Positions 3,234 to 61,781 of a DNA stretch of 64,000 nt are shown piece after piece. Source of the stretch: Vibrio atlanticus (GTDB lineage: Bacteria; Pseudomonadota; Gammaproteobacteria; Enterobacterales; Vibrionaceae); NCBI RefSeq assembly GCF_024347315.1, contig NZ_AP025460.1:2356001-2420000 (forward strand), written 5' to 3'. Each line of letters begins with the position of its first letter. Positions within the stretch are counted from its first letter, which is position 1. The notes under the pieces are model-generated. The model was not told the DNA's origin. It saw only the letters and a program-made list of their open reading frames with translations, and made no database searches. The translations under genes and the position numbers were made by a program.

Positions 3234-3611
3234 TTAACCCAGTTGAATCAGTTCGATTTGGTAACCATCTGGGTCTGTGATAAATGCGATGTGCGTTGAG
3301 CCACCTTTTACTGGCCCCGCTTCGCGAGTGACGTTGCCACCCAGTGATTTGATCTTGTCGCATGCGGCGTAAATATCTTCCACACCCAATGCCAAATGAC
3401 CAAACGCGCTGCCCATCTCGTACTCATTCGTGTCCCAGTTGTACGTGAGCTCGATAGTCGTGCCGCCTTGTTCGTATCCAACGAAAACCAAAGTGTAGCG
3501 GTAGTCGTTGTTTTCGTGGCGTTCAAGCTCTTTCATGCCTAATACTTTGGTGTAGAACTCGATAGACTTGTCTAAATCAGCAACTCGGATCATTGTGTGT
3601 AGGAATTTCAT
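3234..3611 (-). CDS. gloA: Lactoylglutathione lyase (glyoxalase I)
   Basis: A 125-residue glyoxalase I that converts the methylglyoxal-glutathione hemithioacetal to S-lactoylglutathione. Metal ligands line up with the E. coli Ni enzyme (His5, Glu56, His74, Glu122) as His5, Glu54, His72 and Glu120; two residues are missing from the 45-53 loop. ELTYNWD and [13 protein letters not shown] are diagnostic. It lacks the short C-terminal tail of E. coli GloA. It is the first gene of an operon with the OYE reductase 14 bp downstream, an electrophile-detoxification pair. The promoter region carries an inverted repeat (3716-3746) that recurs in front of the other VOC gene at 34678. Confidence 0.96.
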
Positions 3612-3715
3612 ATTTCACCCTTATTGGCACCACAAGCATTGCGCCGTTATGATTTTGAGTGGAGGTTATCCACTAATCTCTGAGTGAAATAATACGATTC
3701 AGCGAGGAATTAATG

Positions 3716-3746
3716 AAATTATCAAAAATTCTCAATGTGATAATTT
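3716..3746. promoter_or_regulatory. Operator-like inverted repeat in front of gloA
   Basis: AAATTATCA (3716-3724), 13 bp, then TGATAATTT (3738-3746). The same arms with the same 13-bp spacing occur at 35269-35299 in front of the VOC gene at 34678. A second small repeat AGTGGA-N5-TCCACT lies at 3658-3674. The regulator is unknown. Confidence 0.6.
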
Positions 3747-3785
3747 TTTGTTATGAACCTTATGACTAGCACGAACTCAATGACA

Positions 3786-3812
3786 CAAAAAAGGGAAGCC
3801 AATGCTTCCCTT
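3786..3812 (-). terminator. Terminator of the LysR gene
   Basis: A 9-bp stem AAGGGAAGC/GCTTCCCTT with a CAAT loop (3791-3812); on the minus strand it is followed by TTTTTT. Confidence 0.88.
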
Positions 3813-3828
3813 CGAGTTAGACTCTCAA

Positions 3829-4764
3829 TTAAAACCGCAAACGCCTATCTTTAAGCGTCTTCGACATAGCATCTGATGTACTGATGACTTGTTCTCGGAA
3901 CCATTTATGAGCAGGGTCATTATTCTGCTTCTTTAACCAAATCAAATAGTGAGATATAGGCTGATATTCAAAAGGTGGTTTAAACAACTGTAAACCTAGC
4001 CTTTCTTGAAACTGCACAGCCATAGATAAAGGCACTACGGTGATGTAATCCGATTGGCTACATAGCAAGATATTACTGAACAGTGAGCGCCCGTGAAACA
4101 CGATTTTACGCTTAGATAAATCCAATGATGTGTAGTGATTTAAACTGCGAACTTTACGCCGTGTTCTATCTAATACGGCATGCTTTTCATTCATGAATTG
4201 CGCTTCGCTGATTTCACCTTGGATTCGCGGGTGATCCTCTCTACACACGATCACAAACTCGCCTTCATATAGAGTTTCACTAACGATGCTTGGGTGTTCA
4301 GGTACCACAATATCGATCATTGCATCGAACTCTTGAGTCAAAAGGTCTTCGTAAATACGCTCATCACTGTCTGGTTGGTCAAAGACTTCTAGCGACAAGT
4401 TTTGATTGGGAAGCGCCGCGAAACTATTAAGTAAAATCCACTGTAAGTGCTCAGGTGCAGAAATCACAAACTTACGTTCAGAGGATTGTTCATCAAAATT
4501 AGCCATCGACTGAAATACATCATTCAATTCATGAATCGGCGTTTTGATTTGTTCATACAAACTTTGAGCATAAGAAGTAGGCGTAACACCTCGTCCTTTA
4601 CGAACAAAAAGCTCTTGGCCTATCTCTTTTTTCAGTCGTGCCAATGCGGTACTAATGGTCGATTGATTGGTGCTGAGTTGATCCGCAGCTTTACTCAAAC
4701 TGCCCTGCTCCATCACCGCAGAAAACACAGCAAGTAGGTTGAAATTGGGGATTTCGTTGCTCAT
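3829..4764 (-). CDS. LysR family regulator, divergent from an outer-membrane protein gene
   Basis: A 311-residue LysR-type regulator. The N-terminal helix-turn-helix is plain (NLLAVFSAVMEQGSLSKAADQLSTNQSTISTALARLKKEIGQELFVRKGRGVTPT, about residues 9-63), followed by a substrate-binding domain of the LeuO/NodD-like subgroup. It is transcribed away from the outer-membrane protein gene at 5113. The shared 348-bp gap holds the palindrome ATCGTAAAAACGAT at 4802-4815, 37 bp from its start. The same or a closely related palindrome precedes the HlyD operon and the alkyl sulfatase gene, so I infer that this regulator controls itself and all three units. Its co-inducer is unknown. Confidence 0.9.
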   Translation of the reverse strand: MSNEIPNFNLLAVFSAVMEQGSLSKAADQLSTNQSTISTALARLKKEIGQELFVRKGRGVTPTSYAQSLYEQIKTPIHELNDVFQSMANFDEQSSERKFVISAPEHLQWILLNSFAALPNQNLSLEVFDQPDSDERIYEDLLTQEFDAMIDIVVPEHPSIVSETLYEGEFVIVCREDHPRIQGEISEAQFMNEKHAVLDRTRRKVRSLNHYTSLDLSKRKIVFHGRSLFSNILLCSQSDYITVVPLSMAVQFQERLGLQLFKPPFEYQPISHYLIWLKKQNNDPAHKWFREQVISTSDAMSKTLKDRRLRF

Positions 4765-4801
4765 ATATCATTACTCGTTAGGCGACCATAAACACCATGC
4801 T

Positions 4802-4815
4802 ATCGTAAAAACGAT
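4802..4815. promoter_or_regulatory. Palindrome 1 of the LysR/sulfatase regulon
   Basis: ATCGTAAAAACGAT, with a further half site ATCGT at 4821-4825. It lies in the 348-bp gap between lysR and the outer-membrane protein gene, which otherwise holds no supportable gene. An identical 14-mer is at 8443-8456. Confidence 0.6.
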
Positions 4816-5112
4816 TAAATATCGTCAATAAAAACATTTATTAAAGGTATAACGCATTGATTATTTTGCTAATAAATAGCATATTAACCAGACTTTACTC
4901 ACACTCATCAACCCTCAATAAATCTTCATATATTGAGACAATAAAGCCCTCCCTTCTCCGTAAGCCCTTTAATAATGGGGCGTACTTCATGCAACGCGCT
5001 TTGAAACCACAACATTGTCTCAAATTACATGACACTGAGTTTCCGTTCGGTACATATACATTCCTTTTGTGAATACTACAATGGCACCAAAATAATGACC
5101 CTCGGTATCAAT

Positions 5113-6024
5113 ATGAAAAACACTAAAATAATTTCTCTACTCTTAAGCGGTGCGGCTATCGCTTACTCTGGTTCTGCGCTGGCTGAAAAGGAACAACTCT
5201 CAGTTCAGGAAGCCGCAAAAAAATCGGCTAACCCGGTATCTGACGTATGGATGCTAATCACTCAGAATGATTACACCTTTCTTGAGAAAGAAGATGGCCA
5301 CCATGAAATGCAAAACCGTTTCAGCTTTCAACCAGTAATGCCTGTTCCTATCATGGATGGCGAATGGAACTTGGTGAACCGTCTGGTAGCCAACCACTAC
5401 AGTTCACCAGGTGACCGTGAAAATGGTGATTTCTTTGAAGGTCGTACAAATGGCATGGGAGACACCGTCTTTCTGTCAATGGCAGCGCCTAACCGTGATG
5501 ACGGCTGGATTTGGGGTGTTGGTCCAACAGTGATCATGCCAACAGGTACTGATGGTTTAACCCAAGATAAATGGCAAGTAGGCCCTGCGGCAATGGTCGC
5601 TCGCCTTGGTAAAGAAACCGGTAACCCAGCAAGTATTGAAAGCTGGAACGTTGGTTTCTTAGCTCAGCAATGGTGGGATGTAGGCGGTAGCGACAGCGTG
5701 ACTGAATCAACCAATCAAGCGGACATCCAGTACTTCTTAAACTATCGTGTCAGCAACACCGCGTTAATTGGTATGACGCCTAATATTCAAATTGATTGGA
5801 CAAAAGATGGTTCCGACCAATTTACTGTACCTGTCGGGTTAGGCTATATCGATATGTTTAAGATTGGACCGATGCCTGTTCGTTGGGGTGTAGAACTTCA
5901 ATATTACGTAATGAAACCAGACGCAAATGTTAATACGACCAACCCAGCTGAGTATGTGCCATATGCACCAGATTGGAACCTAAAATTCTTTATTGCTCCT
6001 GTTACATTAAACCCGTTCAAATAA
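5113..6024 (+). CDS. Outer-membrane beta-barrel protein (transporter / 'neuromedin U'-annotated type)
   Basis: A 303-residue exported protein. A Sec signal peptide (residues 1-24, cleavage after SGSALA) leads into a sequence of alternating hydrophobic and polar strands rich in Trp, Gly and Tyr, ending in Phe-Lys after a strand-like segment, as in outer-membrane barrels. It resembles barrel proteins annotated as transporter or phenol-degradation MetA-pathway type; that assignment is from memory. The ATG at 5113 gives a clean signal peptide; an in-frame ATG at 5095 is possible. Position suggests LysR control through the 4802 palindrome, perhaps giving passage to an amphipathic substrate of the sulfatase at 8555. 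Confidence 0.75.
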   Translation: MKNTKIISLLLSGAAIAYSGSALAEKEQLSVQEAAKKSANPVSDVWMLITQNDYTFLEKEDGHHEMQNRFSFQPVMPVPIMDGEWNLVNRLVANHYSSPGDRENGDFFEGRTNGMGDTVFLSMAAPNRDDGWIWGVGPTVIMPTGTDGLTQDKWQVGPAAMVARLGKETGNPASIESWNVGFLAQQWWDVGGSDSVTESTNQADIQYFLNYRVSNTALIGMTPNIQIDWTKDGSDQFTVPVGLGYIDMFKIGPMPVRWGVELQYYVMKPDANVNTTNPAEYVPYAPDWNLKFFIAPVTLNPFK

Positions 6025-6046
6025 TCGATTAAAATCCTCCCTAGAG

Positions 6047-6085
6047 CTGGTCTAATTTATTCAATATTTTAGGCCAGTCTTTTTA
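6047..6085 (+). terminator. Terminator after the outer-membrane protein gene
   Basis: The stem CTGGTCTAA (6047-6055) pairs with TTAGGCCAG (6069-6077), with one G-U pair, followed by TCTTTTTA. Confidence 0.75.
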
Positions 6086-6657
6086 GTACTTTTCATCGAC
6101 TTCTATGATCCAAACCAAGTTAATGAACAATGTTTTCTATCTGTATATGAGCCTTTTCAAATAAATCACTTTACCGATTTAGAGTTATAACTACTAATCG
6201 TAATTACGATATTATCAAATCGTAATTCTGGGTAGATACTGGTCAAAACTCTTCCTATTATCCTGCTAACAAATCAATCACCAGCCCAAATAGAAAACTG
6301 ACAAATGTTTTACTTTGGTATGTCAATTGTCATGGAAGAGCCCCTCGATTGTCGAGGTAATACACGTAATAAAAACAGTCGCTAGAAAGCCGCGCGAATA
6401 TTAATTCGAACGCTTCATAGCCATTTCATTTACGTCTGCTGACAAATAATAAAGATTGATTTGTAGAGAAGCATATTCGCTTCTTGATACCGAGAATCGG
6501 TTGTCTGGACTGTGCAATATCACTTTAAATATCATCTATTACTTTTGTTTATTATGGACACTAATCTACCCACATAATAGACATCTACTTTTTAAGATGT
6601 CATTAAAGGTGACTTCTAGGCTGCAAATTCTCTCTTCTTATTGATGTAGGTTGAGAT
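6086..6657. other. Gene-free gap with the promoter of the HlyD unit
   Basis: About 570 bp without a convincing gene. A 62-codon frame at 6456-6644 has no ribosome site or protein character. The only structured signals seen are the palindrome at 6197-6210 and its partial repeat at 6219-6227. Confidence 0.5.
6197..6210. promoter_or_regulatory. Palindrome 2 of the LysR/sulfatase regulon
   Basis: ATCGTAATTACGAT is a perfect 14-bp palindrome with the same ATCGT/ACGAT arms as sites 4802 and 8443 but AATT in the centre. A half site ATCGTAATT follows at 6219-6227. It is far (about 450 bp) from the next start at 6658, so either the leader is long or the site acts at a distance. Confidence 0.5.
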
Positions 6658-7299
6658 ATGAACTTTATAAAAATCATTTTCCAGAAAATCTGGGCCGTTG
6701 TGATGGTCTTGATTAAATTCTGCCTGTTTATGGCGGTAATGTTTGCTGGTGCATGGGCTCTTGCACCGTTAGGCACTATCCATTCTAAAGACATCGACAT
6801 GTCTCAATTCAACAATCATCCCAATGAAATGATGATGAACTTCTTCCAGATGGAGTACTTCTCTGGTTACTTGTTCTCGGTGACCATTGCTGTGGTATTA
6901 GCCGGTGTTTACGGCATGTGGCAGTTGCATGAACTGGGTGTGCATAAAGCAAAAGAACACAAAAGCGCTCACGTACAGATCGTTTTTGCACTGTCACTTT
7001 GCGGGCTCTTCATCAGCAAAACATTCTGGGTTATCGCATTGGTTATCGCATTGGCGAACTGGAAACATATTGGTCAATCACTGAGTGATGTTATTCGCCG
7101 TGGTGTGCAGCCTAAACAAGACGCGACCAATTCAGAGGCAGCCGCAGTCCACGTATCACCTGAAAAATCGGCAGCAGAGCCGTCTCAAACACAACAGTCT
7201 CCAGTAGAACCGTCTTCAGAAGCTCAGCCTTCAAAAGAACAGTCTTCAGAAGATAAGGCTCCAACAAAACCATCCCCTACAGAAAAAGAGGTCGCATAA
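6658..7299 (+). CDS. Inner-membrane protein with Pro/Ser/Glu-rich tail, partner of an HlyD-type adaptor
   Basis: A 213-residue protein whose first 140 residues hold about four membrane segments (roughly 12-37, 68-88, 105-122 and 124-140). The last 65 residues form a low-complexity tail of Pro, Ser, Glu, Gln and Lys, probably disordered. I do not recognise the family firmly; the arrangement resembles E. coli yibI-yibH, where a small membrane protein precedes an HlyD-like protein. Its TAA stop overlaps the next ATG by one base (TAATG), so the two are translationally coupled. Role unknown; it may assemble with the adaptor in an export complex. Confidence 0.7.
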   Translation: MNFIKIIFQKIWAVVMVLIKFCLFMAVMFAGAWALAPLGTIHSKDIDMSQFNNHPNEMMMNFFQMEYFSGYLFSVTIAVVLAGVYGMWQLHELGVHKAKEHKSAHVQIVFALSLCGLFISKTFWVIALVIALANWKHIGQSLSDVIRRGVQPKQDATNSEAAAVHVSPEKSAAEPSQTQQSPVEPSSEAQPSKEQSSEDKAPTKPSPTEKEVA

Positions 7300-8288
7300 T
7301 GAAAGAGATGATGATTCCATACATCCTAATTGTATGGTCACTGTTTGCGACAGGTGCACTGAAGAAGAACTTCAAAAACTACACTTGGGCAGCCATTGGC
7401 GGTGTTACGATTCTTACAGTCTTAGCGGTTATCTCTCGCTTGTGGGCACCCGTTGATTTAACCAATTCAACCACAGTCAAAGCGCCACACGCGGTGATGT
7501 CACCTATCTTTGGCCAGCAGATCGACCAAGTGCTTGTTGAGCACAACCAAATGGTTAAAGAAGGCGATGTAATTTACACCCTCGTCGACATTGAGTCTGC
7601 CGCAGACAAAGCAAAGATCGAATCTTCAATAGTTAAAAAAGAAGAACAGATCAAGCAAATGACTCGCGACTTAGAACGTACTGAAACATCACCAGAGATA
7701 TTCAATGCTCGTGATGTAGAAAAGTACGACTCCGATCTTCGAGTACTGCACGCTGAACTTGTGTCGCTGAAAGCCGATCTACAAAAAGTAAACTGGGCAC
7801 AAGAAAAGAAAACCGTTAAAGCTGAGTTTGACGGTCAGGTATCGATAGTGAATATCGCTGAAGGTTCTGTCATGGGTAACATGCACCTCTACAACACCAG
7901 CAAAAAGTTCCTTGAGATGCGTATCTCAGACCAAACTTACGGCTACGTTCAAGTTGGTGACTTTGCGGAATTCTACGTTGATGCCTACCCAGGACACGTG
8001 TTCCGAGCAAAAGTACACAGCTTTAATGCCGGTACCGGTGAGTCGAGTATTTCTCCACTTCAGGGGCCACAAAGCGTCGGTCAACACGTGGTAAGAAACG
8101 GTAATGGTTTAGGTCGTACTATCGTACTTGAGATCATCGAACCAGAAGGTTACAACATCCCTATTGGTTCAACTGGCGCGGCTTGGATCTCGGCTGAGAA
8201 GCCACATCCGTTCTGGGGCTTCATTGATGTAATCGGTGCAGCAACGGTTCGCCTACAATCTTACAAGTCTTACTTAGGTGCTTGGTAA
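7299..8288 (+). CDS. HlyD-family membrane-fusion protein (YibH-like)
   Basis: A 329-residue periplasmic adaptor. It has two N-terminal membrane segments (about 5-20 and 28-50), a biotinyl-lipoyl-like half motif (VKAPHAVMSPIFGQQIDQVLVEHNQMVKEGDVIYTL), a coiled-coil stretch (about 105-170) and a second lipoyl half (VKAEFDGQVSIVNIAEGSVMG), then a beta-barrel domain. Such proteins bridge an inner-membrane component to an outer-membrane channel. No pump subunit follows, so its partner is either the preceding membrane protein or encoded elsewhere. It lies between the outer-membrane barrel and the alkyl sulfatase and may belong to their regulon. Confidence 0.82.
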   Translation: MKEMMIPYILIVWSLFATGALKKNFKNYTWAAIGGVTILTVLAVISRLWAPVDLTNSTTVKAPHAVMSPIFGQQIDQVLVEHNQMVKEGDVIYTLVDIESAADKAKIESSIVKKEEQIKQMTRDLERTETSPEIFNARDVEKYDSDLRVLHAELVSLKADLQKVNWAQEKKTVKAEFDGQVSIVNIAEGSVMGNMHLYNTSKKFLEMRISDQTYGYVQVGDFAEFYVDAYPGHVFRAKVHSFNAGTGESSISPLQGPQSVGQHVVRNGNGLGRTIVLEIIEPEGYNIPIGSTGAAWISAEKPHPFWGFIDVIGAATVRLQSYKSYLGAW

Positions 8289-8338
8289 GTACTCAGGTTC
8301 TCGGTAAACGCTTATATAACAGCCATTAGTTCCAAATT

Positions 8339-8365
8339 AAATGCCCTGAATGTCAGGGCATTTTT
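8339..8365 (+). terminator. Terminator of the HlyD operon
   Basis: An 11-bp stem AAATGCCCTGA with its complement, a 3-nt loop and a T run; textbook intrinsic terminator. Confidence 0.92.
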
Positions 8366-8442
8366 GTATCTGTCACAAGCTCATCTGGTTAATTGATTCA
8401 GATCAATTAAAATCGCTAATACAATCATTAACAAAATAAAAC

Positions 8443-8456
8443 ATCGTAAAAACGAT
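8443..8456. promoter_or_regulatory. Palindrome 3 of the LysR/sulfatase regulon
   Basis: ATCGTAAAAACGAT, identical to the site at 4802-4815, located 99 bp before the alkyl sulfatase start. This suits an activator site upstream of the promoter. Confidence 0.6.
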
Positions 8457-8554
8457 AGGTTGAAATCCTATTAGCGCGTAGATAGCGCCCCCTCTCCTGT
8501 CTATTATTTGGCTCAAGAAATCCAATTCCTGTATCCAAATATAAGGTCACTATC

Positions 8555-10531
8555 ATGACTAACACATTCAAAAAAATGGCACTTCCAGTTGCAATCGCAA
8601 GTGCACTATTTGCTTCTGGCTTTGCATCAGCAACACCCACTGTTGAAGCAGTATCGAAAGTAGGCCAAGAACTTCAAACGGCAAACGCAGCTCAATACCA
8701 AAACATCGATCTTGATGCACGCTACAAAAGCGAGGTTCTATTCGAACACGAATCAAACATGTTCTGGGGCAAGGGCGAACGCATCCAAGTTGTTTCGAAA
8801 ACGGGCGACTCTCTGGCTTACACAGAAAAATCTGATCACGTTCATCCAACTCTGACTAAGCATGGCCGAAAAATGGACCAAGCAATCATCAAAGTAGATG
8901 ACAACATTTACCTTGGTTACGGTTTTGGTCTCGATACACCAGTAATGATTGAAGGCACTGACGGTATCATCATTGTTGATCCAGGTGAGTCGGTAGAAAT
9001 GGCTCAATCGGTTAAAGAACAGTTCCGTCAAATCACAGACAAGCCGGTTAAAGCAATCATCTATTCTCACAACCACATCGACCACATTTCTGGTGTTCGT
9101 GCATGGGTGACTGATGAAGAAGTAGCATCAGGCGAAGTAAAAATCATCGCTGAAGAAGGCCTAACCGCAGCAGTGGCTAACTGGTCTTCAAACCTAGGTA
9201 CTCTATTTGGTCACCGTACTTCTTACACAGGTGCTAAGCACGTAGAAGAAGGTGAGCACGGCACAGTAAACGACGGCCTTGGTCCACGTTTCATGCAAGG
9301 TGCTATCTCGTTCATTGAACCAAACCTGCTTGTACCAAGCCAGAGTCACATCGAAATCGAAATCGCTGGCGTGAAAATGCACATCGAGAACGTGCCATCT
9401 GAAACTAAAGATGAGTTAGTGGTTTACTTCCCAGAGCAAAAAATCCTGCACGCGGCTGAAGTACTTCAAGGCGAAAACTTCCCTAACCTTCACACCATCC
9501 GTGGTACTAAATTCCGTGACCCATCAATGTGGTTCAAGGGCATCGACGTAATGCGTAAGTTCGACACTGAGATCATGATTAACTCTCACGGTCGCCCTGT
9601 TGAAGGTAAAGAAGCGGTAGCTGACGTATTAACAGCTTACCGTGATGCGATTCAATACACGCATGACCAAACAATCCGTTACATGAACAAAGGTATGACG
9701 CCGGACGAGCTAGTTGAAGTGGTTAAACTTCCTAAGCACCTTGCAGAACACCCTTGGTTAGGTGAGCACTACGGTACCGTTGCACATGCTGTTCGTCAGA
9801 TCTACGTTGGTTACAACGGTTTCTTCGAAGCAGATCCATGGCAATTAGAGCCAATGGCTTACGAGCAACGTGCTAAAGCGTTCGTAGAGATCATGGGCGG
9901 CCGTGAGAACATCCTTACGACTGCACAAGCAGCAATTAAGGCTGAAAACTACACATTTGCAGCAGAAATTCTTTCTTACCCAATCACGGTAAACAAGCAA
10001 GATATGGAAGCTCGCGAGATGAAAGCACAAGCTTACAAAGCATGGGCTGCAGACCAAGTGAACATCAACTGGCGTAACTGGGCGCTTAACGCGGCGGCTG
10101 AACTAGAGAACAAACGTGACTTCTCTAACATGATCAGCTTCGCTTCTGTTGACGTGCTTACTGCGCTACCAAGCAAGCAGATCTTCGACATGATGACTTC
10201 AACGCTTATCGCAGAAAACTCGTTAGACGTGAACATGATGCTAACGTACAACTTCTCTGATACGAACGAAGCATTCACTATCGAAATCCGTAACGGTATT
10301 GCTCAGTTACACGAAGAAGCAGTAAAAGGCGCAGACGTTCAAATCGACACCACTCGTGCAGTACTGAACCAAATCTTGATTGCGGGTCCAAACGCTCAAC
10401 AAGTGATTGGTAGCAACCTACAGTCTGGTGCATTCAAGTTCTCGAACGGCGACATCAAAGGCTTCGGTCAATTCATGAGCTACTTCGATAAGCCAATGAC
10501 TCCAGAAGAGATCATGCTAATCGTTCGTTAA
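8555..10531 (+). CDS. Secreted alkyl sulfatase (metallo-beta-lactamase fold, SdsA1/YjcS type)
   Basis: A 658-residue exported enzyme that cleaves sulfate from primary or secondary alkyl sulfates such as surfactants. Residues 1-26 are a Sec signal peptide. The di-zinc motif HNHIDH (His172, His174, Asp176, His177) marks the metallo-beta-lactamase domain. It is followed by a helical dimerisation domain with DQTIRYMNKGMTPDELVEV and HYGTVAHAVRQIYVGYNGFF, then a C-terminal SCP2-like domain (last 120 residues), the three-domain order of SdsA1. It is a single gene ending in its own terminator. The palindrome shared with the LysR promoter suggests control by that regulator; released sulfate or fatty alcohol would be the useful products. 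Confidence 0.9.
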   Translation: MTNTFKKMALPVAIASALFASGFASATPTVEAVSKVGQELQTANAAQYQNIDLDARYKSEVLFEHESNMFWGKGERIQVVSKTGDSLAYTEKSDHVHPTLTKHGRKMDQAIIKVDDNIYLGYGFGLDTPVMIEGTDGIIIVDPGESVEMAQSVKEQFRQITDKPVKAIIYSHNHIDHISGVRAWVTDEEVASGEVKIIAEEGLTAAVANWSSNLGTLFGHRTSYTGAKHVEEGEHGTVNDGLGPRFMQGAISFIEPNLLVPSQSHIEIEIAGVKMHIENVPSETKDELVVYFPEQKILHAAEVLQGENFPNLHTIRGTKFRDPSMWFKGIDVMRKFDTEIMINSHGRPVEGKEAVADVLTAYRDAIQYTHDQTIRYMNKGMTPDELVEVVKLPKHLAEHPWLGEHYGTVAHAVRQIYVGYNGFFEADPWQLEPMAYEQRAKAFVEIMGGRENILTTAQAAIKAENYTFAAEILSYPITVNKQDMEAREMKAQAYKAWAADQVNINWRNWALNAAAELENKRDFSNMISFASVDVLTALPSKQIFDMMTSTLIAENSLDVNMMLTYNFSDTNEAFTIEIRNGIAQLHEEAVKGADVQIDTTRAVLNQILIAGPNAQQVIGSNLQSGAFKFSNGDIKGFGQFMSYFDKPMTPEEIMLIVR

Positions 10532-10580
10532 TTAGATATACACAAGCAAAGGCATGCTAAGGATGGCGAGCCGATAACTT

Positions 10581-10605
10581 AGGGACCCATTGTGGTCCCT
10601 TTATC
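10581..10605 (+). terminator. Terminator of the alkyl sulfatase gene
   Basis: A 7-bp stem AGGGACC/GGTCCCT with a 6-nt loop and a short T-rich tail (TTAT). Confidence 0.75.
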
Positions 10606-10698
10606 GTTTATTTATTGGTACAGTTCGCAACCTTCACTCAACAATCTCGATCTATTGTTGAAGTAAGAAAACTGCCCTAGTTCGTTTAAGGTTCACAC

Positions 10699-11187
10699 AT
10701 GCTAAAACGATTTGCTCTCATTCTTTCACTCACCTCTTCACTCACGTTTGCCTGTGGTCTTCACCAAGATACCGGATTTAGTTTAGTGACAGAGCCCGGT
10801 TCACTCGAGGTATTTGGCAACGTCATTACAGCCAGACAAGACGATGAATTCAACAACCTCAATAAGCCAGATCACTTTCGACTCTTTGCCATCAAGGCTG
10901 CGCTTGCGAAACCCCACCCAAGCAAAATTGAGTTCAACTTGTTCGAAGCAATCAAAGGTCATTACAGCCAAGTGAAATTTGAGAAGGGGGTCGATGTCTC
11001 AGGCCGAGATACTTTGCCTACTGAAGAAGACCTATTACTGATTACGGAACTCGATGTGTTCGATGCGCTAGCTACTGGCACTATATCTTGGGATCACGCG
11101 ACACTAAATGGCTTAGTGATCATCAATGGCCCACAAGATAAACGAGAGCAACTTGAAGATTGGCTTAGTGATATTTTTGAAGGGTAG
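10699..11187 (+). CDS. Small exported protein of unknown function
   Basis: A 162-residue protein with a Sec signal peptide (residues 1-18). The cleavage region SLTFACGL could be a weak lipobox with Cys19, so it may be a lipoprotein or a soluble periplasmic protein. The mature part is acidic with no membrane segment or motif I recognise. It has a fair ribosome site (AAGG), stands alone and converges on the RND operon. It may be an accessory to the upstream sulfatase locus, but its promoter lacks the ATCGT palindrome. Confidence 0.72.
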   Translation: MLKRFALILSLTSSLTFACGLHQDTGFSLVTEPGSLEVFGNVITARQDDEFNNLNKPDHFRLFAIKAALAKPHPSKIEFNLFEAIKGHYSQVKFEKGVDVSGRDTLPTEEDLLLITELDVFDALATGTISWDHATLNGLVIINGPQDKREQLEDWLSDIFEG

Positions 11188-11215
11188 TTGGAATGAATTT
11201 AGTGAGAGAACAACG

Positions 11216-11247
11216 CCATAATCGAACCAGATACGGCTCGATTATGG
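11216..11247. terminator. Hairpin between convergent genes
   Basis: A 10-bp perfect stem (CCATAATCGA with its complement) around a 12-nt loop, between convergent genes. No T run follows on either strand, so termination is likely but weak. Confidence 0.45.
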
Positions 11248-11278
11248 GTAATTGAAGAGAAGTGAAATAGAAAAGCAG

Positions 11279-14200
11279 TTATGCCGCTTGAGTCGCGATG
11301 TTTTTCCGCTGATTTCGAGTCATCAAATGATAAACCACAGGCACAAAGTAGAACGAGATAAGCGTGGTTAACACAGTACCGCCCACAATCGCGACCGCAA
11401 ACGGAGGCCAGAAGCCACCACCTGCGATGATCAATGGCATAAAGCCGCCAACAGTCGTTATCGTGGTTGAACTGATATGTCGAGTACATGACATCACAGC
11501 TTCAACGACTGCATCTACATTCCCGGAGGAAGCCTCTTTATCGAGTTTCAATTCGGTCAGAATCACAATGGCCGCGTTAATCGCTAAGCCCGCAATCCCA
11601 AGCATCGCGATGATCACCGTAAAACCAAATGGATAACCGAAGATCCACACCGACAACAACCCTAGCCCACCAGCCAATCCTGCTACCATGAAGATGATGC
11701 TACTCATTCGGAACGAGTTAAACGACATCACCACCACCAACACCATCAATACGACAACGACAGCGACATTCGAGATGAGGCTGTTGACTGAATTATCTCG
11801 TTCAGCGGATTCACCACCAAAACCAATCGTATAGCCCGATGGCATCTGATAGCTTTCTAGGCGTTTTTGGAATTCATTGAGCACGGTTTGAGGCAATACA
11901 CCCGCTTCAATATAACCCTCAATGGTATTCACACGTTGCCCATTTCTGCGCGTAATCGCACCACGACTTGTGGTCAGTTCAAGCTTAGCTAAGGTAGACA
12001 CATTGATACCCGTAGAATAGACATCAGAGCTTATCGGCAAGCGAATATTACTCAGGTGCGTCAAGTTCTCACGCGCATCATCCGCCACACGAACACGGAT
12101 AGGCACCGACTCGCTGCCCTCAATCACCGAGCCACTTTCACGACCTGTCAGCGTAGTTTGCAACATACCAGCAAACTGGTTCAATGAAATACCGTTGAGT
12201 TTTGCGGTGTCTTCATCGACCTTCAACCACACCTTCGGCGTACCCGGTTGCAGCGTTTCCCTTGTGTGCGTGACATGAGGAACACCTGCCAGAATCAATC
12301 GCACATCTTCACCAATTGCTTTTAGGGTATCGAGGTTTTCACCGTATACTCGCAGTTCAACGGGCGCGGTAAATGGAGGCCCTTGGTTGAGCTTACGTAC
12401 CAAGATTTGTGCTTCCGGCACCTCTTCATCCAACACCTTTTGCAGCTCAGGAATCAGCGCGTTAGCTTGGTCAAAGTTCTCTGTTTTCACCATCGCTTGC
12501 GAAAAGTATGGCGCGTTGTTTTGCCTTGCTTGCAAGTTGTAATAGAAGGATGGGAAGTTTGCGCCCACTAGCCAATCGATACGCTCCACTTCAGGGTAAC
12601 GATGAATGATGTCATCGATTTTCTCAGAGGTGTTTTTGGTGGCGTAAATGCTCGCTTGAGGCGGCATGTAAACCTGAATCTCAAACATGTCTCGGTCTGA
12701 TGGCGGGAAGAATTGCTCAGTCAGCTGAGACATGCTCCAGTAACCAGTAAATGGAACCAACAACACCAAAGCAATCGTGATGATTGGATGCGTGACACCA
12801 AAGCGGACAGAAGATGAGAACCAGCGCGTCAAAGCCGGGATTCTCAAACCCGTCATGTACCAATGGTGCTGCCCTTTCTTATCAACGTCGCTGAGTTGTT
12901 TCGGCAGTAACTTGGTCGCTAAGCCTGCGATTAAGGTGTGCGAAATAATGTAAGAGCCGATCAACGAGAAAGACACGGTAATCGCAATGCCACCGACAAA
13001 CTCACCCGATGCTCCCGGCATCAAAATAATCGGGGCAAACGCCAATACGGTGGTTAAGGTTGAGCCTAATAACGGCACCCATAAATGCTTCAATGCATTC
13101 ATGGTCGCTTCAGCTCGTTGTTGCCCTTTCAAGCGATAAGCCTGAATGGTATCAACCATCACCACTGCGTTATCGACCATGATCCCGAGCGCCACAATTA
13201 GGCCCGTCACCGACATTTGGTTAATCGGTACACCGGTCATTTTCATGATCGACAGGGTCAATAATGAGGTTAACGGCAGAGAAATTGCCACTAAGATCGC
13301 GGCACGCACGCCTAAAGTGACAAACAACACAATCAAGATCAGACCAAAACCGATCATCAAGCTTTTGCCTAAATCGTCTAAGCGAGTTTCGGTATAACCT
13401 TGCTGATTAAAGAGCACCGTCACCTTAACGTTACTTGGTAACTCTTGCTCAAATTTACCAATCAGAGCATTAGCTCGCGACGTCCAGTTGTCAACTCGCA
13501 GATCAGGGTGCATTCTTGCCGCGACAATCACACCCGGCTCACCATCAATAATAGCAATCTGGTCTTGTGGGGTTTTCTCACCACGTTTCACCGAAGCAAT
13601 GTCTTCCATACGGATGATGTGACCTTTGCTATCAGTGGCTATTGGCACTTGCTTAATGCGTTCAATAGAATCGAGTTCAGATTTAATTTCTAAGCCAAAG
13701 CGAGAATAAGCACTCACTAACTCGCCGGCGGAGTTCTTGGCGTCCGCCCCTTCGAGCGATTCAGCGATATTGGCACTTGAACGCCCTAGAGCAGCGGCAT
13801 CGGCAGTGCGTAAACTGATTTGAATCTCTTCTTGCGGCATCCCGTATTCATCAACGAATTCGGTACCCGACAAGGTTCGCAACCGCTTAGCGAGCTCTTT
13901 GGCATAGCGCCCGAGAGTTAATCTGTCAGGCTCGCCTGCACCAGACCAAGTTAGAGATGCGATGGTTGTGAAAGCATAGGTATGGTCGCTATCGAGATCG
14001 GGAGATTGAGAGCCCGCAGGCAAAATGGATTCGATGTCAGATAGTTTGTCGCGAGCTTGCGACCAGACGGGTTCAGGCTCGGTGATGGTGTCATTCAATT
14101 CGAGCGTGACAATAGACACGCCCGGTCTTGAGGTTGAGCTCACGAGTTTAACTTCACTCAGCTCACGCAGCTTGTTCTCGATAACTTCTGTTACCAAGGT

Positions 14201-14377
14201 TTCAACACGCTCGGCACTGGCTCCGGGGAAACTGGTAGTAATGTTCGCGTAACGGTTGATGATGACTGGGTCTTCTGCACGTGGCAACGTCATGAACGCC
14301 GAAATACCACTCACCATCAGCAGCGCGGTCATCAAGATAAGCAGTCGAGTGTTGGAAATAGTCTCTATAATTTTCAT
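11279..14377 (-). CDS. RND efflux transporter, inner-membrane permease
   Basis: A 1032-residue AcrB-superfamily pump that uses proton flow to drive drugs or other hydrophobic compounds out through a tripartite complex. Typical features are one N-terminal membrane helix, two large periplasmic loops and two blocks of transmembrane helices. The proton-relay helix reads GLIVALGIMVDNAVVMVDTI (near residue 395). The second half ends with PLIIAGGGFWPPFAVAIVGGTVLTTLISFYFVPVVY. It resembles the VmeI/AcrB-like single-gene pumps of Vibrio that borrow an outer-membrane channel. It starts 8 bp after the membrane-fusion gene, in one operon controlled by the divergent TetR gene. Confidence 0.94.
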   Translation of the reverse strand: MKIIETISNTRLLILMTALLMVSGISAFMTLPRAEDPVIINRYANITTSFPGASAERVETLVTEVIENKLRELSEVKLVSSTSRPGVSIVTLELNDTITEPEPVWSQARDKLSDIESILPAGSQSPDLDSDHTYAFTTIASLTWSGAGEPDRLTLGRYAKELAKRLRTLSGTEFVDEYGMPQEEIQISLRTADAAALGRSSANIAESLEGADAKNSAGELVSAYSRFGLEIKSELDSIERIKQVPIATDSKGHIIRMEDIASVKRGEKTPQDQIAIIDGEPGVIVAARMHPDLRVDNWTSRANALIGKFEQELPSNVKVTVLFNQQGYTETRLDDLGKSLMIGFGLILIVLFVTLGVRAAILVAISLPLTSLLTLSIMKMTGVPINQMSVTGLIVALGIMVDNAVVMVDTIQAYRLKGQQRAEATMNALKHLWVPLLGSTLTTVLAFAPIILMPGASGEFVGGIAITVSFSLIGSYIISHTLIAGLATKLLPKQLSDVDKKGQHHWYMTGLRIPALTRWFSSSVRFGVTHPIITIALVLLVPFTGYWSMSQLTEQFFPPSDRDMFEIQVYMPPQASIYATKNTSEKIDDIIHRYPEVERIDWLVGANFPSFYYNLQARQNNAPYFSQAMVKTENFDQANALIPELQKVLDEEVPEAQILVRKLNQGPPFTAPVELRVYGENLDTLKAIGEDVRLILAGVPHVTHTRETLQPGTPKVWLKVDEDTAKLNGISLNQFAGMLQTTLTGRESGSVIEGSESVPIRVRVADDARENLTHLSNIRLPISSDVYSTGINVSTLAKLELTTSRGAITRRNGQRVNTIEGYIEAGVLPQTVLNEFQKRLESYQMPSGYTIGFGGESAERDNSVNSLISNVAVVVVLMVLVVVMSFNSFRMSSIIFMVAGLAGGLGLLSVWIFGYPFGFTVIIAMLGIAGLAINAAIVILTELKLDKEASSGNVDAVVEAVMSCTRHISSTTITTVGGFMPLIIAGGGFWPPFAVAIVGGTVLTTLISFYFVPVVYHLMTRNQRKNIATQAA

Positions 14378-60898: not shown

Positions 60899-61781
60899 GG
60901 GCGTGTTGATCTTTGCTGTACATTTTGTGTTCAACAATACATCGGTAGCCACATTAACATGAATGCCAGCGATAACATGCTGGCATAATTCCTTTCTAGC
61001 TTGTCATATCTACTTGAAATAGCTCGATAATGCTTAATTCTCCCAAAGGCATTTTCGACCAAGTGACGATACTTGTATAGACACCAATCCATACTGTCTT
61101 TGTCTATATCTTGTCCGTAATTGCGTTTAGCAATTACCGTTTCTCCGCCACGTTCCTTAACAAAAGTACGGAAAGGTTCGCTGTCATATCCTTTATCACA
61201 AACGATAGTATTAACTTCATCGAGTTGTTCAACTAAGCTTTCGGCATGCACTATATCGTGGCGTTGTCCTTCTGATAAATCAAAGCAAATCGGCAGACCA
61301 CCACTATCTACGGCTAAGTGAATTTTGGTTGAGTTGCCCCCGCGACTTTTTCCTATTTGCTCTGAGCTTTCAGTAGCTGCACCTGTACTATGCTGATGCG
61401 CTCGAACTATAGAGCCATCAAGAAAGACCCATTCAAAATCAGCCATGCTAGATAAGCTTTTGAAAAGTTTATCTAAAATCCCTTTCTTTGACCAAAGATT
61501 AAATCGTCTGTAAACGGTACTCCACTCTCCGAACTCAGAGGGTAGATCTCGCCAAGGAATACCTGTTCTCATTCGATAAAGTATTCCTTCAAATGTCATT
61601 CGATGTTCAGTTTTATCGTAAATACGACCTGTACTTTTCATAACTTGGAGTAGCAGTTCCCAGCGAATATCAGTTAGCATTGTTCTTGGCATGGTATTGG
61701 TTATGGTTTTACTTTTGGCGAAGCAAATTATAACTCTTTACCATGCTGTTCAAAAAACACTCACGAAAGATCAACACGCCC
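60899..61781 (-). mobile_element. IS5-family insertion sequence, complete copy
   Basis: An 883-bp element with terminal inverted repeats (GGGCGTGTTGATCTTTG on the left, its complement ending CAACACGCCC on the right, 16 or more matching bases). It carries a single transposase gene. Flanks read CTA before and TAA after, compatible with a 2-bp TA (or CTA) target duplication as in the IS427-like part of the IS5 family. A second copy starts at 63327. Confidence 0.9.
60931..61692 (-). CDS. IS5-family transposase
   Basis: A 253-residue DDE transposase encoded in one frame. The N-terminal part has DIRWELLLQVMKSTGRIYDKTEHRMTFEGILYRMRTGIPWRDLPSEFGEWSTVYRRFNLW. The catalytic triad falls in FLDGSIVRAHQHS (Asp), VCDKGYDSEPFR (Asp) and HLVENAFGRIKHYRAISSRYDK (Glu). 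Length and motifs indicate an intact enzyme. The visible part of the second copy encodes the same protein. Confidence 0.94.
   Translation of the reverse strand: MPRTMLTDIRWELLLQVMKSTGRIYDKTEHRMTFEGILYRMRTGIPWRDLPSEFGEWSTVYRRFNLWSKKGILDKLFKSLSSMADFEWVFLDGSIVRAHQHSTGAATESSEQIGKSRGGNSTKIHLAVDSGGLPICFDLSEGQRHDIVHAESLVEQLDEVNTIVCDKGYDSEPFRTFVKERGGETVIAKRNYGQDIDKDSMDWCLYKYRHLVENAFGRIKHYRAISSRYDKLERNYASMLSLAFMLMWLPMYC

Follow-up and report, generated by a model that had tools for sequence, protein, structure and literature searches.

A candidate LysR-type regulon around a type III alkyl sulfatase gene of Vibrio atlanticus, marked by a palindromic putative operator

We analysed a stretch of 64,000 nucleotides from Vibrio atlanticus (contig NZ_AP025460.1, positions 2,356,001 to 2,420,000; referred to below as the window), in which lysR, the gene of a LysR-type transcriptional regulator (LTTR), and several neighbouring genes share a palindrome in their upstream gaps. 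The lysR gene (3829-4764, minus strand) encodes a protein of 311 residues in which both HTH_1 (66.1 bits) and LysR_substrate (62.4 bits) pass the Pfam cut-offs; the nearest NCBIfam models are LeuO (177 bits) and BsrA (167 bits), yet both scores are below the curated cut-offs of 262 and 480. The plus strand then carries the gene of a 303-residue protein with a hydrophobic, signal-peptide-like N-terminus (OMP, 5113-6024), which an earlier note on this DNA had called an outer-membrane barrel; the gene of a 213-residue small membrane protein with hydrophobic segments (MP213, 6658..7299); and, overlapping the latter by one base, the gene of a HlyD-family periplasmic adaptor with Biotin_lipoyl_2 and HlyD_D23 above cut-off (7299-8288). 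These are followed by the gene of a type III alkyl sulfatase of 658 residues (8555-10531, plus strand), which has a signal-peptide-like N-terminus and metallo-beta-lactamase, dimerisation and C-terminal domains, and, directly behind it in the gene row, by p162 (10699-11187, plus strand), whose product of 162 residues has an N-terminus that resembles a signal peptide by eye and was not flagged by the hydrophobicity scan. We refer to the genes that recur with lysR as the module.

Three palindromes of the form ATCGTAAWWACGAT are present in the window, starting at 4802, 6197 and 8443. The earlier note had reported one 14-mer in two identical copies, together with a third palindrome sharing its arms, all in promoter gaps, and this was confirmed: exact ATCGTAAAAACGAT occurs at both 4802-4815 and 8443-8456, and ATCGTAATTACGAT at 6197-6210, each inside a gene gap. 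The first, designated operator A (4802..4815, not assigned to a strand), is the only site before the OMP gene here when one mismatch is allowed, and its near edge lies at -38 of the lysR ATG; because the palindrome begins 38 bp before the start codon, lysR is probably autoregulated. Operator B (6197..6210, plus strand) precedes the membrane/HlyD unit, with 447 bp between the palindrome and the ATG of the MP213/HlyD pair, and operator S (8443..8456, plus strand) starts at -112 of the sulfatase ATG. When up to two mismatches were allowed, the palindrome matched the window 10 times on the two strands, as compared with 1.88 matches expected from shuffles (largest shuffle, 6). The whole genome (5.1 Mb) has four places with ATCGTAANNACGAT, three of them within 3.7 kb here, and the reversed-pattern control gave three strand hits. 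The fourth is located some 300 bp ahead of an open reading frame (ORF) at L001 1822-2583 that is nearly identical to the window ORF 60931-61692, inside which a near-palindrome is located at 61615; both ORFs presumably encode transposases.

Conservation was scored in samples that overlap partly, namely 118 genomes of the genus, in which LysR orthologues were accepted at E ≤1e-80; named loci from a sulfatase alignment search (the best 80 of 120 relatives), of which 26 have a sulfatase of at least 76% identity; and a gene-order search of 394 genomes. The windows scanned were 250 bp upstream of lysR and 175 bp of the sulfatase ATG, at no more than one mismatch, and 58 scrambled palindromes served as the control; L172 was omitted from site tables A and B, being the same record as G046. 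A lysR orthologue, 57-100% identical, was found in 19 of the 118 genus genomes, and the palindrome was upstream of it in all 19 (15 exact; control mean 0.16, maximum 3). LysR was also found in 24 of the 26 named loci, which gave 24 palindromes, 14 of them exact (control mean 0.40, maximum 5), with Shewanella, Moritella, Psychromonas, Aliivibrio and Alginatibacterium among them. The order search detected LysR in 23 of 394 genomes; 13 of the 23 were inspected, one of which is cut at a contig end, and the site was present in all 12 readable loci, including 10 outside the genus (8 exact, 2 with one mismatch). The scan of related genomes that the earlier note had proposed therefore came out in favour of the palindrome. 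Upstream of the sulfatase, the site was seen in 24 of 27 loci (control mean 0.34, maximum 5), the three misses being L172, where it has two mismatches, and L186 and L189, in which no LysR orthologue was found. The palindrome was not found upstream of these two LysR-less sulfatases (591 bp upstream covered in L186), in the 4-kb loci of four HlyD units at 66% (G030, G056, G100 and G109), or upstream of OMP orthologues outside the module in two genomes, G022 (elsewhere in the genome) and G041; the one near match in G041 lies inside the OMP orthologue gene. In the Moritella-type loci L181, L333 and L334, the operator appears to follow the genes: lysR and the sulfatase gene form a tandem there, and a one-mismatch palindrome precedes each of the two.

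When 25 sulfatase sites were aligned on the palindrome, the conserved sequence extended to ATCGTAAaaaCGATA.aTtGAAATCgtAtTaGC, followed by a -10 hexamer. A TANNAT hexamer recurs at a single fixed distance from the palindrome: it is there in 23 of 25 sulfatase sites, in all 17 HlyD sites and in 9 of the 21 lysR-side sites, the background means over offsets 5-74 being 0.46, 0.24 and 0.21, respectively. In the window, operator B is followed on the plus strand by a second half-site, CAAATCGTAATT (6216..6227), which is activation-site-like and conserved in the aligned HlyD sites, and by a predicted promoter (6233..6261) with TAGATA in the -35 position, 17 nt, and TATTAT as the -10. Operator S has its own activation-site-like half-site on the same strand, GAAATCCTATTAGC (8462..8475), conserved in the 25 aligned sulfatase sites, and a predicted promoter of TAGATA, 17 nt and TATTAT (8479..8507) at the offsets seen at operator B. 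Given that this TAGATA-17-TATTAT arrangement lies at an equal distance from the palindrome in both promoters, the palindrome centre falls at -64.5 of the predicted start. According to the portion of PMC8407307 available, LysR-type regulators usually recognise T-N9/10/11-A dyads near -65 and also have an activation site at the promoter; ATCGT-N4-ACGAT is a T-N10-A dyad centred at -64.5 from the predicted start with a conserved second half-site, and thus has the composition of a LysR-type box.

A search of the V. atlanticus genome with a 42-base footprint, at up to three mismatches, returned only the sulfatase and HlyD promoter sites described here (control 0). The exact 25-bp footprint was matched 32 times, in 28 of 227 genomes, whereas its control was never matched; of 30 loci read, 29 carry module genes, and two more matches are in the module by place. 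The sole exact match outside the module, in G181, lies within an ORF that we take to encode alanine racemase. The near matches (ATCGTAAGGACGATAG and kin) in G017, G011, G072, G005 and G001, among the matches listed, were also rejected, all five being inside a long ORF with no module gene close; one of these loci, L281, has a LysR-like ORF (26%) and an ORF resembling a type I sulfatase. The earlier note had taken the palindrome as the mark of a regulon, which was borne out, but the rest of the promoter (half-site, -35 and -10) had escaped it. Its expectation that the 14-mer is not scattered holds for three of the four places in this genome and for the extended 25-bp form, but not for bare ATCGTAANNACGAT, which is present in 86 of the 118 genus genomes, many of which are also matched by the reversed control, and which was for that reason rejected as a regulon finder by itself. 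Specificity comes from the clustering of sites and the longer promoter footprint, not from the bare 14-mer.

In relatives, where the earlier note had suggested examining gene order, the module genes recur together. Eight non-Vibrio loci (Shewanella L183, L184, L185 and L195, and L337-L340) have the sulfatase, p162, MP213, HlyD and a FadL porin gene in one row behind a single palindrome, which has one mismatch in L184, L185 and L195. The order is sulfatase-MP213-HlyD-p162 in V. tapetis (L180) and sulfatase-p162-FadL in V. fluminensis (L192) and L342, and in the clade to which the window belongs, the row is broken up into units that each carry a copy of the operator. HlyD at 76% identity or more was found in 14 genus genomes, all of which have LysR. 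The porin gene of relatives belongs to the FadL/OmpP1/TodX family (PF03349, 230.6 bits) and follows the lysR-side palindrome in G005, G011, G072, G087, G018 and G021, whereas it is absent from the locus in V. atlanticus, in whose genome the most similar FadL-like sequence elsewhere has 36% identity. OMP is within the module in 5 of the 118 genus genomes; among relatives, seven loci have it behind FadL, where a degenerate site of its own precedes it. The FadL porin of relatives had been overlooked in the earlier note. V. fluminensis groups with Shewanella both in the LysR tree (weakly, 80/71) and in the sulfatase tree (98/93), which suggests that its lysR and sulfatase genes were transferred together as a pair.

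The sulfatase contains PF00753 (59.4 bits), the dimerisation domain PF14863 (129.9 bits) and the C-terminal SCP2-like domain PF14864 (52 bits). Its metal ligands (H172xHxDH, E283, E302 and H345) do not vary among 8 aligned sequences, taken from 15 genus orthologues, and align with 2cfu; the motif THxHxDHxGG-102-E-18-AE-44-H, as it appears in the accessible part of PMC4207315, reads SHNHIDHISG-102-E-17-AE-42-H here. The match to 2cfu, SdsA1, is a remote one (E 4.7e-68, 233 bits). Orthologues of at least 80% identity were found in 15 of the 118 genus genomes, all of them among the 19 with lysR, and p162 (at least 50% identity) was found in the same 15 and in the same gene row in each, directly behind the sulfatase except in G093, where MP213-HlyD intervene; remote p162 relatives (27-31%) occur in three more genus genomes. 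The calls made in the earlier note for lysR, HlyD and the sulfatase were upheld, but p162, which it had not included, belongs to the set. A secretome table of V. tapetis, in the part of PMC4234667 available, has a 73-kDa aryl/alkyl sulfatase; whether it is the same enzyme could not be told.

We aligned 47 members of the p162 family (46 of 58 matches, after short or near-identical ones were dropped, and the window copy). SCP_3 matched six of them (best 0.065), SCP2 four (best 1e-6) and Alkyl_sulf_C three (best 1.2e-5), and a weak match to an SCP2 chain was obtained in the PDB (E 0.93). The family is weakly similar to sterol-carrier proteins (SCP2), but the likeness is only a lead, because p162 of the window itself matches none of the three profiles. 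According to excerpts of PMC6107682, recruitment of hydrophobic substrates is the role proposed for the SCP2-like domain of SdsA enzymes. A derivation of p162 as a copy of the sulfatase C-terminal domain was considered and rejected, since hhalign found nothing and the Pfam matches are weak. Six residues, C19, H22, E83, H88, D119 and D122, are invariant in the 47 aligned members and may form a metal or catalytic site instead of belonging to a plain lipid carrier.

We consider it likely, with a probability of roughly 0.8, that the locus is an LTTR regulon for an amphiphilic sulfate ester. That it is a real and conserved LysR regulon, a widened relative of the SdsB/SdsA pair, is well supported by the comparison among genomes, and the regulon proposed in the earlier note thus passes the test of comparative conservation. 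We infer LysR binding, the inducer and the substrate, as that note had done for the functional link. The regulator would recognise ATCGT-N4-ACGAT about 65 bp upstream of the predicted target starts, for which the comparative evidence is good; the succession of this site, a second half-site, a weak -35 and a good -10 would be the usual layout of a LysR-family activator, and the same site next to lysR would probably mediate autoregulation. The targets here would be the sulfatase, with p162 behind it, the MP213/HlyD pair and, more loosely, OMP. Upon binding an alkyl-sulfate-like inducer, LysR would switch the module on; the ester would enter across the outer membrane through FadL in relatives and perhaps through OMP here, the exported sulfatase would hydrolyse it to alcohol and sulfate, p162 may bind the substrate or the product, and MP213-HlyD may serve an inner-membrane/periplasm step, either export or envelope protection. 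A defined likely operator, a constant partner gene and recurring envelope genes would provide a direct handle on the substrate of a type III sulfatase, and were the inducer of LysR found, the natural substrate class would follow. The locus also illustrates neatly how an operon can be broken into units that each keep an operator copy, and the recurrence of the set in several marine bacteria makes it a credible, readily testable pathway for soap-like sulfated fats.

Several observations weigh against this interpretation. The case is a comparative one in which the transcription starts are predicted, and the functions of the sulfatase and of the module are proposed from family membership alone; the best match to a solved sulfatase, 245 bits over 566 residues, is remote. 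Besides the wide occurrence of the bare 14-mer in the genus, ATCGTAATTACGAT is found at position 1501 in L026 and L047, two genomes without LysR, beside an ORF that we assume to be ubiG-like, and the bare 14-mer is therefore not exclusive to the module. The -10 hexamer, as counted above, is at its fixed offset in a minority of lysR-side sites, and the V. atlanticus genome reads TTATTT there; in the OMP sites of relatives (n = 7), TAGAT is at the usual offset in six, with the -10-like hexamer one base off. The description of OMP as a barrel is the label of the earlier note, given that OMP has no Pfam or NCBIfam match and that no Pfam domain was seen in the homologues listed (120 of 197). With no family match, the lysR-side site as its only one here, and two orthologues outside the module that have no palindrome upstream, OMP is the loosest and least secure member. 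The set is not obligate, because 4 of the 19 lysR genomes (G006, G009, G074 and G076) keep the HlyD unit and have no sulfatase, and p162 was not found in the Moritella loci (L181, L333 and L334, of which L181 and L334 are the same record). In the window, moreover, a terminator-like hairpin (10581-10600) lies between the sulfatase gene and p162.

Short palindromes near genes are expected in an AT-rich genome, and the 14-mer alone is not rare in the genus, so one could envisage that the sites arose by chance. This is contradicted by the shuffles, the scrambled palindromes, the footprint searches and the offset controls, all of which agree with the judgement of the earlier note, and we regard chance as a negligible explanation. 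It is also conceivable that another regulator, not linked to this locus, acts on the palindromes and that lysR is merely one more of its targets: recognition of the site by LysR is deduced from comparison of sequences, and the 14-mer is also found away from the module. Nevertheless, the site is upstream of every one of the 19 + 24 LysR orthologues examined, and it was not found in the few LysR-less loci inspected (two sulfatases, four HlyD units and two OMP upstreams), which makes a separate regulator improbable. 

The LysR regulon would be compatible with a role other than nutrition, since that question concerns function only. The module might protect the envelope against host or algal amphiphiles, of which sulfated sterols and bile-like compounds are examples; desulfation would then be a means of detoxification, and HlyD-MP213 would act in efflux or repair. 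HlyD adaptors usually serve export, and HlyD-MP213 stays with lysR in the four sulfatase-less genomes; further, no alcohol-oxidation gene recurs in the module maps, unlike in the slf operon as described in the part of PMC3346939 available. However, FadL in relatives points to uptake, and beside the module HlyD has no conserved transporter partner; we hold protection to be a possible role, though not the one we favour. A more elaborate and still more doubtful proposal is that the genes form an entire envelope pathway dedicated to a sulfated lipid of natural marine origin and not to sodium dodecyl sulfate (SDS). In it, FadL or OMP would admit the amphiphile, and a secreted SCP2-like p162, as a free-standing equivalent of the SCP2-like domain that the enzyme itself contains, would deliver it through the periplasm to the sulfatase. 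MP213-HlyD would then pass on or expel the lipid once desulfated, and the whole would be governed by a single LysR operator, copies of which stay with the genes upon operon splitting. The accessible text of PMC3346939 reports the view that type III alkyl sulfatases may act on SDS incidentally.

The systems SdsB/SdsA of Pseudomonas sp. ATCC 19151 and SdsB1/SdsA1 of P. aeruginosa, in the latter of which sdsB1 adjoins sdsA1, likewise consist of a LysR-type regulator and a type III alkyl sulfatase of the metallo-beta-lactamase fold. The sdsA/sdsB pair is the established precedent for such regulation (PMC3696852, in part), and PA0739 is identified as SdsB1, an LTTR with a known role, in part of PMC8407307. 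The likeness to SdsB is drawn from the regulator class and from the position of lysR next to a type III sulfatase; the clade here differs in adding p162, MP213-HlyD and FadL or OMP. A LysR-type ORF was present within 4 kb in 25 of 52 more distant sulfatase loci, some of which are on short contigs. As to the LeuO/BsrA branch, BsrA has 765 bound regions according to the same excerpts of PMC8407307, as compared with two genomic places of the footprint here. The slf operon of the Psychrobacter plasmid pP62BP1 is also a regulated cluster around a type III alkyl sulfatase, but its regulator is of the AraC/XylS type and its other genes encode two dehydrogenases and a fatty-acid-CoA ligase (PMC3346939, seen in part). 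Literature searches, in which coverage of subscription papers was poor, found no paper on this LysR regulon.

The HlyD protein shares its Biotin_lipoyl_2 and HlyD_D23 domains with HlyD/EmrA-type membrane-fusion adaptors, but it is paired with a small membrane protein and no conserved cognate inner-membrane pump was found beside the module. An RND gene on the opposite strand (11279-14377) was considered as its partner and rejected because it is not conserved there; such a gene is near the module also in G076, G009 and G074, and other genes take that place in G115, G046, G017 and G006. The profile search found no credible Pfam family for MP213, the homologues of which differ in length, chiefly at the C-terminal end. 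Many sources name MP213 'magnesium transporter', and some OMP homologues are named 'Neuromedin U'; both look like automatic misnomers.

A sequence scan placed a terminator-like hairpin after the HlyD unit (8339..8363, plus strand). The predicted 390-nt leader of this unit (6268..6657, plus strand) folds better than 100 of 100 shuffles (z -4.1), and in an alignment of 12 of 16 leaders, 5 of 25 predicted pairs have two-sided changes, some of them in a small hairpin. The long helix near the ATG proves nothing, because its GAGAAT...ATTCTC pairing is nearly invariant in the 12 aligned sequences; a search of the 300 bp preceding 11 other HlyD units did not recover the GAGAAT part. Known RNA families gave two matches in 3500-11300, both under the gathering score.

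Related gene sets were noticed at other loci. In L119 and L120, FadL-like and LysR-like segments lie near MP213-HlyD pairs that are paralogous, at about 50% identity, and no sulfatase match is within the 4-kb loci. The module of G107 is accompanied by a second set of comparable genes (L069 2946-7626), for a type I sulfatase (PF00884), HlyD, a FadL-like porin and a small membrane protein that resembles DUF3302 but scores below the cut-off; no exact palindrome was found among these genes. The module of L058 (G087) is decaying, with a stop codon in lysR and the sulfatase gene split by about 2.1 kb holding an ORF of 543 residues. Finally, L062 (G006) and L176 retain a C-terminal OMP remnant (about residues 260-303, 44%) between lysR and the HlyD unit, the trace of a deletion.

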